A DNA stretch of 64,000 nucleotides from an uncultured Actinomycetes bacterium (GTDB taxonomy: Bacteria > Actinomycetota > CADDZG01 > WHSQ01), in NCBI GenBank assembly GCA_937863385.1, contig CALMBW010000019.1, forward strand, positions 1 to 64,000. The letters run 5' to 3'. The notes beneath the pieces were generated by a model. That model was given only the letters and a program-made list of their open reading frames with translations. It searched no databases and was not told the DNA's origin. This document shows, in pieces, positions 59,766 to 61,847 of the stretch (the stretch's first letter is position 1; each line of letters opens with the position of its first letter). The position numbers and the translations under genes were made by a program.

Positions 59766-60475
59766 AGCGACGCCCTCCCACCCCTGATGCGGTCCCACTG
59801 GATCTTCTTCGCCGAACGGCGCAGGTAGAGGGGCCTCAGGTCGTACAAGGAATCGAACTCTTCGCGATACAGCCGTGGGAGTGCAAGTTCGACGACCGCG
59901 CGGGCGTTCGGGAAGGCGTGGCTCATCGTGGATATCTCGGCCACGGAACCGAGGTCTTGGAACATCTCTCGATAAAGCAGGGCGCCGTTACCGACCATCA
60001 GAACTTCCTCGGGGCGGGAAGCGATCCCGATCGCTAGGTTTTCGGGACGTTCAACCCGGTAGTCGGTCATACGCTGGATACCACCTGGTGAAGGCCGGTA
60101 GAAGGCGTGGAAGACCTCGTTGCGCCGGGCATCCAACACCGCGCAGATCGTCTTCTGGCTGTATCGAACCTCGAAAGCAAGGATGTCGAGGCTGGGAAGA
60201 CCGACGATCGGCACCGAGAGGGTCTGCGCAAGGGCTTTGGCGGTTGCGACACCCGTTCGCATCCCCGTGAATAGCCCCGGGCCGAGGCTAACCGCGATGC
60301 CACCGAGGTTCCGGTAGCCGAGTCCCGACTCTTCGAGACAGAACCTGATCGCCGGCAAGAGGAACTCGTTGTAGGTCGCACCCCGAGATACGAGCGCGCT
60401 GGCCACGACCCCCTGCTCGGATCCGATGGCAACACTTGCTTGTGGCGTCGAGGTTTCTATCCCCAGGACCAGCAT
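59762..60475 (-). CDS. tsaB: tRNA threonylcarbamoyladenosine biosynthesis protein TsaB
   Basis: 237 residues, starting M-L-V-L-G-I-E-T-S-T, with G-P-G-L-F-T-G-M-R-T-G near 64-74. It is an ASKHA relative of TsaD lacking the metal site and acts as its dimerisation partner. It is joined to tsaE by a one-base stop-start overlap and to rimI by a 4-nt overlap. Confidence 0.95.
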   Translation of the reverse strand: MLVLGIETSTPQASVAIGSEQGVVASALVSRGATYNEFLLPAIRFCLEESGLGYRNLGGIAVSLGPGLFTGMRTGVATAKALAQTLSVPIVGLPSLDILAFEVRYSQKTICAVLDARRNEVFHAFYRPSPGGIQRMTDYRVERPENLAIGIASRPEEVLMVGNGALLYREMFQDLGSVAEISTMSHAFPNARAVVELALPRLYREEFDSLYDLRPLYLRRSAKKIQWDRIRGGRASL

Positions 60476-61059
60476 CAGCTCTCTCCCGCTCGCGGGTCTC
60501 TATGCTCGCGTGATTGGCTTAGGTCCTCGAACCGGTTGCCTTCGGACTGCCCTTCCGACATAGCGTCCAGCAGGGTTTCGGCCGTTTCTCGCATCTCGAA
60601 CAGCTTGCGACTCCAATCCTCGCGCGTCACTCTGAAGGTGACGATCCGATCGTCATCGGCGTCAAGATCATCGCTGCGACGCAACTCGATCCGCATGTGC
60701 GATCTAGGAAGCAAGGGTTCGACGGCTTCGCCCCACTCCAGAACCACGATCGCCTTGGGGTCAAGGAACTCTTCGAAGCCAAGGTCGAGCAGTTCCTGGA
60801 ATGAATTGAGGCGATAGATGTCGAGATGGATGATCGGATAGCGGCCTTCGTACTCGTGAACGATCGTGAAGGCAGGGCTCGTCACCCGCGTTTGCACGCC
60901 AAGAGCCGTCGCCAGACCTTGGACGAAAACGGTTTTGCCCGCTCCGAGGTCGCCGCTAATCGCGATGACATCCCCCGGCAAGAGAGCGGGCGCGAGGGAT
61001 GCTCCAAGGATGCGCGTCTCCTCCGGGGAGTGCGTCACAACTCTTACGGAACGGATCAT
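60475..61059 (-). CDS. tsaE: tRNA threonylcarbamoyladenosine biosynthesis ATPase TsaE
   Basis: 194 residues. P-loop G-D-L-G-A-G-K-T at 36-43, the T-S-P-A-F-T-I switch and H-L-D-I-Y-R-L near 75-81, and L-E-W-G-E near 106-110 identify TsaE. The C-terminal 45 residues are longer than in the E. coli protein (153) and charged. First gene of the tsaE-tsaB-rimI-tsaD unit; its ATG lies 2 nt from the left end of the inverted-repeat element at 61061. Confidence 0.94.
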   Translation of the reverse strand: MIRSVRVVTHSPEETRILGASLAPALLPGDVIAISGDLGAGKTVFVQGLATALGVQTRVTSPAFTIVHEYEGRYPIIHLDIYRLNSFQELLDLGFEEFLDPKAIVVLEWGEAVEPLLPRSHMRIELRRSDDLDADDDRIVTFRVTREDWSRKLFEMRETAETLLDAMSEGQSEGNRFEDLSQSREHRDPRAGES

Positions 61060-61060
61060 C

Positions 61061-61226
61061 TAGTGTGCCGTCCCGTGAGTAGCGTCTTTGTCCAGAGCGG
61101 CGCTGCGCGGCGAGGGCAAGGCGCGACGAGTTGTGCGTACCGGGGAGTACGGGCGCGAGGAGCAACGCAGGCATCGTCGATGCAGAGCCGCTCTGGCATG
61201 GGGATTATTTGCGGGACGGCGCACTA
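61061..61226. mobile_element. 166-bp MITE-like element with nested inverted repeats and TA ends
   Basis: TAGTGTGCCGTCCCG (61061-61075) is repeated inverted at 61212-61226 with one mismatch in 15. A second perfect inverted repeat, CCAGAGCGGC (61092-61101) with GCCGCTCTGG (61187-61196), lies inside. Both ends are TA, as after insertion at a TA target, and there is no coding capacity. The core has two related GCGCGAsGAG words. The right end supplies the TAG stop of the glycosylase gene. Confidence 0.6.
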
Positions 61227-61847
61227 AAACAGGCCCATCTGTTCGGCCGTATCGGCGACCATCACGGAGCCACTCGGGGTGGGCTCGGAGCGCTCCAAGA
61301 CCGAACGAACCAACGCGAAGTCCTCTCTGATGGCATCGACAGGACTCATCCCGCCGAAACGCCCGCCTCGAAGTGCCGCAGCCGGGTGGAAGGTGGGGAT
61401 CACGACGGCTCCACGACGTTGGTACATCTGCCCTCGCGCTTTGGTGATCCCGATCTGCTCCTCGAGGATAAAGCGCGTGGCGAAATTGCCCAAGGTAACG
61501 ATCACCTTTGGGCGCATATGAGCGAGCTGAGCTTCGAGGTACGGGCGACAGCTTTCGATCTCGTCTGGAAGGGGGTCACGATTGTTAGGGGGGCGGCACT
61601 TGATCACGTTGACGATCGCGGCGCGGGATCGATCGAGTCCGATCTCGGCAAGCATCCGGTCCAACAACTGCCCTGCCGCTCCGACGAAAGGGATCCCCTG
61701 CTTGTCCTCGTGGAAGCCGGGTGCCTCTCCGATGAACATGAGGTCTGCATCGAGGTCGCCGTCGGCCCATACGACGTTCGTGCGCCCCTCGGCAAGGCGG
61801 CAACGGGTACACGAAAGGGCTTGGTCTCGGACCTCGGCGATCTGCAC
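61224..61847 (-). CDS. uracil-DNA glycosylase, family 4 (FeS type)
   Basis: 207 residues. Four Cys at 13, 16, 84 and 100 match the 4Fe-4S site of family 4 UDGs; motif A is G-E-A-P-G at 40-44 and the C-terminal motif is H-P-A-A. It removes uracil from deaminated DNA. The GTG start at 61847 has a weak ribosome-binding site. Its stop codon coincides with the terminal TAG of the inverted-repeat element, so the last codons may have been shaped by the insertion. Confidence 0.92.
   Translation of the reverse strand: MQIAEVRDQALSCTRCRLAEGRTNVVWADGDLDADLMFIGEAPGFHEDKQGIPFVGAAGQLLDRMLAEIGLDRSRAAIVNVIKCRPPNNRDPLPDEIESCRPYLEAQLAHMRPKVIVTLGNFATRFILEEQIGITKARGQMYQRRGAVVIPTFHPAAALRGGRFGGMSPVDAIREDFALVRSVLERSEPTPSGSVMVADTAEQMGLF

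Follow-up and report, generated by a model that had tools for sequence, protein, structure and literature searches.

The closest described systems are small palindromic repeats and the insertion sequences that move them. RUP of Streptococcus pneumoniae is, like the element analysed here, non-coding, intergenic, multicopy and TA-ended, with IS630-like terminal repeats; it is 107 bp long and has been attributed to IS630-Spn1 (PMC2229807). Correia/NEMIS and ERIC likewise are TA-ended mini-elements with terminal repeats and strong folds (PMC2229807). The IS630 family/Tc1-mariner group (NF033545, PF13358) shares with our element the TA target, a preference for CTAG and ends of about 20 bp that read TAGTG...CACTA, and a CTAG target preference of IS630 is named in the title of Tenzen and Ohtsubo 1991, as cited in PMC2170065. 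GTAG and CGTC REPs are also palindromic and extragenic and occur in several phyla, the GTAG REPs having an IS200/IS605-type partner (PMC3733652).

The window analysed here, a 64,000-nucleotide stretch of contig from an uncultured Actinomycetes bacterium (genome G000), contains at 61061-61226 a palindrome of 166 bp that carries TA at both ends, one of the two TAs being the target duplication, and that holds no plausible gene, as the first-pass annotation had also read it. Its outer arms are the terminal inverted repeat adjoining tsaE (61061-61075, + strand, TAGTGTGCCGTCCCG), which matches IS630 ends, and the one adjoining udg (61212-61226, - strand, TAGTGCGCCGTCCCG); they are 15 nt each and complementary at 14/15 positions. 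The inner arms, at 61092-61106 (CCAGAGCGGCGCTGC) and 61182-61196 on the + strand, were initially taken as 10-bp repeats; they too measure 15 nt each with 14/15 complementary, while the outer repeats and the spacers of 16 and 15 nt stand as first given. Folding of the + strand yielded a minimum free energy of -100.5 kcal/mol (z = -7.81) and of the - strand -71.8 kcal/mol (z = -4.78), with none of 200 shuffles as stable as the real sequence. The palindrome is real and far beyond chance.

The element fills nearly the entire gap between two genes read on the - strand. Upstream lies the gene for a family 4 uracil-DNA glycosylase (61224-61847, - strand, TIGR00758), which ends ...EQMGLF-TAG, its stop codon being the TAG read on the - strand at 61226-61224; downstream lies tsaE (60475-61059, - strand, TIGR00150), which starts 1 nt beyond the element, the single base 61060 separating the element end from the ATG. 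The target of the insertion was TTAG. The first-pass annotation had proposed that the element provides the glycosylase gene with its stop codon, and the terminal TAG is indeed that stop; the codon, however, was rebuilt from target TA plus element G rather than newly supplied. Placement between two co-directional genes and the strong fold would fit a terminator or regulatory hairpin that is native to the udg-tsaE operon and resembles a MITE only in appearance. This reading is highly improbable, since the element is missing from 14 of the 16 orthologous junctions between udg and tsaE, where the two genes nearly abut, copies occur at unrelated loci, and the only other orthologous copy, in G007, has the opposite orientation. 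A single copy kept in place across relatives, the pattern that the annotation had associated with an intergenic RNA, is thus contradicted. The insertions in G000 and G007 both lie in the udg stop codon, and the site is empty (ctcttcTGAtggcc) in G014, a congener of G007. Given the opposite orientations and this empty site, the two insertions are independent, so that the udg stop codon has been struck at least twice, in two genera.

Further copies and empty sites, both of which the annotation had suggested looking for, were found. G000 itself contains a second full-length copy (C3:48721-48884, 164 bp, 91% identical), as well as three divergent copies and some remnants that are solo ends or short derivatives. 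Among these small remnants are solo or nearly solo terminal repeats TAGTGCGCCGTCCCG and an internal-deletion derivative of about 49 bp (C3:29284-29298, L015; C20:121759-121778, L008; C1:896-910, L011; C24:26357-26405, L006), as if the middle had been lost from larger copies. The taxonomic family supplied six more genomes (G007, G010, G011, G012, G014 and G015) that each contain several 166-bp copies with TAGTG...CACTA ends. When the joined flanks of 14 insertions were sought in sister species, 8 of the 14 had a contiguous counterpart at 76-92% identity. The clearest case is the gapA end, where G015 reads aagctcTAG...CTAgtcacac and G011 reads aagctcTAgtcacac (aagctcTAgtcac with a shorter flank). 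Clean single-TA junctions were read at L091 and L051 and near-identical ones at L080 and udg-tsaE; at L085, L074 and L073 the element is absent from the sister, whose sequence differs at the junction and thus gives no clean single TA. Some copies carry additional sequence. Two related inserts of about 50 nt interrupt the core at a shared position (...CGCCGCAGCATCGCTTCGCCCGC...) in G014 and G007 (L077 696-915 and L081 about 645-863), G010 copies among L069, L097, L100, L101 and L104 have extra arm inserts containing GGCTCCGCCGAGGTCGGAATTGGGATTC, and a G015 copy at L097 has another insert in its core; the G010 arm inserts and the L097 core insert look like nested repeats.

Transposase genes of the IS630 type (PF13358) are present in G002, G004, G010, G011, G013, G014 and G015, and the PF13358 profile had no match at E<=0.001 in G000, G007 or G012. 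The matching IS630 that the annotation had called for thus exists in relatives, and the window genome yielded none. Several of these family genes sit in elements of 1.1-1.2 kb bounded by TAGTG...CACTA, and the transposases of L111, L112 and L113 match NF033545 (IS630 family) at 1e-76 to 1e-83. TAGTG ends were found on L111, L112, L113, L118, L269 and L279; the last two are gammaproteobacterial IS630 elements whose ends match those of the window element at 15-17/22 positions after the TA, with the exception of one end that matches at only 13-14/22. In nine other core-bearing genomes the IS630 ends match the genomes' own MITEs poorly, although those of G064 match the window element. The intact insertion sequences have only their ends in common with the MITE, its interior and core being missing from the ones tested. 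Most family copies have TA at both ends where the empty site holds one TA, and among intact copies a C precedes the terminal TA in 21/27 and a G follows it in 20/27, a CTAG preference.

Together, the multiple copies, the empty sites and the IS630 elements with TAGTG...CACTA ends in relatives bear out the initial IS630/mariner-type reading. We hold with high confidence that the window element is a non-autonomous IS630/Tc1-mariner-type element (MITE) that entered the udg stop codon at its TA, mobilised in trans through its TAGTG...CACTA ends. An IS630 transposase presumably acted on these ends; the insertion duplicated the TA, and the element's first base, G, rebuilt TAG, which left the glycosylase unchanged and increased only the spacing between udg and tsaE. 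As no IS630 transposase was detected in G000 by the profile search, the transposase source for the window copy presumably acted in trans, and the copy looks like a relic. By mechanism the element is an ordinary MITE of a known kind. A REP- or BIME-like palindrome, or one mobilised by an IS200/IS605-type enzyme (GTAG or CGTC REPs, RAYT), would share its palindromy, extragenic position and spread over many phyla; the length of 166 bp, the TA ends and the IS630-type terminal repeats leave that origin scarcely credible. Identity with GTAG or CGTC REPs themselves was ruled out, these being tagged repeats of 20-40 bp that lack such terminal repeats (PMC3733652).

Insertion into stop codons recurs across the family. 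Among the 51 family ends that could be tested, 24 close a frame of at least 100 codons in the TAG frame, the two remaining frames giving 9 and 7 (Fisher p = 5e-5), and the same test on 49 ends from other phyla gave 18 versus 6 and 6 (p = 7e-4). Genes that end at elements include gapA, sdhA, dnaN and rpsE, for which Pfam returned GAPDH, succinate dehydrogenase flavoprotein, DNA polymerase III beta and ribosomal protein S5; further such genes encode an AIR-synthase-type protein and ribonucleotide reductase small chain, among others. Coding sequence rich in GC should contain few TAs, whereas stop codons offer them, which would account for the position of the insertions, and because the element starts with G, target TA plus G always rebuilds TAG, as can be read directly from the sequence. 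We therefore favour target choice, combined with purging of gene-breaking insertions, as the source of the recurrence. It is also conceivable that host cells now use the MITE at gene ends to terminate transcription in both directions or, as a hairpin, to stabilise mRNA, and that its place at stop codons is selected rather than only a target effect, given that many copies lie flush with gene 3' ends and some lie between two convergent genes. We consider such co-option quite unlikely, as target choice and purging suffice and the copies have no orientation bias relative to the genes reading into them (10 sense and 14 antisense in the family; 6 and 10 elsewhere). This lack of bias and the opposite udg insertions make a role in host transcripts in one fixed orientation unlikely, and the lack of bias likewise speaks against the terminator or promoter suggested by the annotation, as far as it would need such an orientation. 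More broadly, the insertions illustrate clearly how elements that target TA can persist harmlessly where genes are dense and GC content is high, namely by entering stop codons and regenerating them.

The centre of the element, about 50 nt (GCAAGGCGCGASGAG...CGASGAGCAACGC), is better conserved than its ends, a feature absent from the first-pass annotation. In the window copy this core comprises, on the + strand, a 5' half at 61116-61130 (GCAAGGCGCGACGAG; canonical GCAAGGCGCGAGGAG), a variable, palindromic apical stem-loop at 61131-61155 (GCGTACC...AGTACG) and a 3' half at 61156-61168 (CGAGGAGCAACGC; canonical CGACGAGCAACGC), which forms the tandem G.A pairs with the 5' half. When GTDB genomes were scanned for the pattern GCGTTNCTCGTCGN{8,38}CTCCTCGCGCCTTGC, at least 119 stretches matched, the chance expectation being estimated at far below one; among the matches listed are Pseudomonadota (alpha, beta and gamma), Acidobacteriota, Verrucomicrobiota, Planctomycetota, Actinomycetota, Myxococcota (Kofleriaceae) and Omnitrophota. 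The elements that carry the core are palindromic and mostly end in TA; they come from at least seven phyla, and their arms are unrelated. TAG-starting terminal repeats (at least 17/24 identity) could be placed for 28 core-bearing elements among the matches listed. Most such elements are 160-170 or 230-277 bp in size, the longer ones folding as two hairpins on one terminal stem. With a relaxed pattern, random samples gave matches in 11/397 Actinomycetota genomes and in 21/399 Pseudomonadota genomes, the latter sample having been drawn around a known core carrier and at least two of its matches looking like chance; a reversed control pattern gave 0 and 1 matches, respectively.

Several further observations concern the distribution of these elements. 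In L193, L206, L208, L147, L217, L218 and L224 (269-277 bp) the second hairpin resembles a degenerate core on the opposite strand. The terminal repeat TAGGGCCTGTTMACA is very abundant, with 115 matches in G066, 39 in G817 and 64 in G818, and the listed places of five genomes showed no long partner for this TAGGGCCTGTTMACA-ended (TAGGGCCTGTT-ended) class. Three viral contigs in IMG/VR (L321-L324) bear the core motif and are the only viral matches found, and a search of a plasmid collection with a Polaromonas copy returned no match. Core-bearing elements also lie on contigs of a MAG labelled Klebsiella pneumoniae (L198 and L200), a label that may reflect binning or contamination.

The GCAAGG strand of the core reads GC-AAGGCG-C-GA-g1-GA-g2-apex-c2-GA-c1-GA-G-N-AAC-GC, so that two tandem G.A/A.G mismatch motifs alternate with Watson-Crick pairs, and all three of these interleaved pairs show compensatory changes. 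Among 41 genome-by-type combinations, C7:G was C:G or T:A in 34/41 (T:A in four genomes), a variation that comes from one relaxed scan alone, the other having fixed this pair in its pattern; g1:c1 was G:C, C:G or A:T in 34/41 and g2:c2 was G:C, C:G or A:T in 35/41. Both relaxed scans left most or all paired positions free. The observed pairing was reached by 0 (C7:G), 21 (g1:c1) and 13 (g2:c2) of 20,000 shuffles, values that are inflated by related sequences; the both-sided changes nonetheless occur in unrelated genomes (G000 and G295; G519; G711; G605; G530 and G558), and in the window copy g1:c1 is swapped to C:G. Relaxed-pattern matches in G508, G739 and G695 break one or more pairs and were all kept in the statistics, the first two looking like chance matches. 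The GA strand folds more stably in 27/27 family copies and in 30/39 from other phyla, and in the window element the strand on which the core folds is the antisense one relative to udg.

Since copies are oriented at random with respect to host genes, the core may serve the spread of the element itself, acting in folded, single-stranded form as ssDNA or RNA. Its retention across elements with different ends and its absence from the tested IS630 elements suggest a function for the mini-element itself. We tentatively propose, at slightly less than an even chance, that the core is a module not described before: a hairpin in which covarying pairs flank two tandem G.A motifs, with an internal loop AAGGCG/NAAC. 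Mini-elements from at least seven phyla, whose arms are unrelated and whose terminal repeats differ, would share this module, which as folded ssDNA or RNA would aid their spread independently of the transposase. The same sequence could instead bind a protein as duplex DNA through two direct CGASGAG half-sites, since tandem G.A mismatches within a palindrome amount formally to direct repeats when the DNA is double-stranded. Such repeats would need no covariation, whereas the bases between the GAs do covary and retain Watson-Crick pairing (G:C to C:G or A:T; C:G to T:A); this and the more stable GA strand make the protein site rather unlikely. A core that such elements conserve in sequence and structure across phyla implies a common mechanism of spread or a common host factor, for which apparently nobody has yet searched.

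Rfam gave no family for these elements, the best hit being E 0.42 for the window copy (20.9 bits against a gathering score of 137) and E 2.8 for a gammaproteobacterial copy. Core sequences had only chance matches in the text of open-access papers, and no description of bacterial MITEs with such a core was found in the open-access literature. IS630-type MITEs are already known; the shared folded core sets this group apart and makes it worth following up. Set against the known systems, the element shares with the IS630 family only its ends, the interior core being absent from the insertion sequences. GTAG and CGTC REPs are much shorter and tetranucleotide-tagged and have no described tandem G.A core. 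RUP differs in length and ends, and no conserved core has been described for it. The sequences of Correia/NEMIS and ERIC are unrelated as far as described, whereas the element described here rebuilds stop codons and has the G.A core at its centre.
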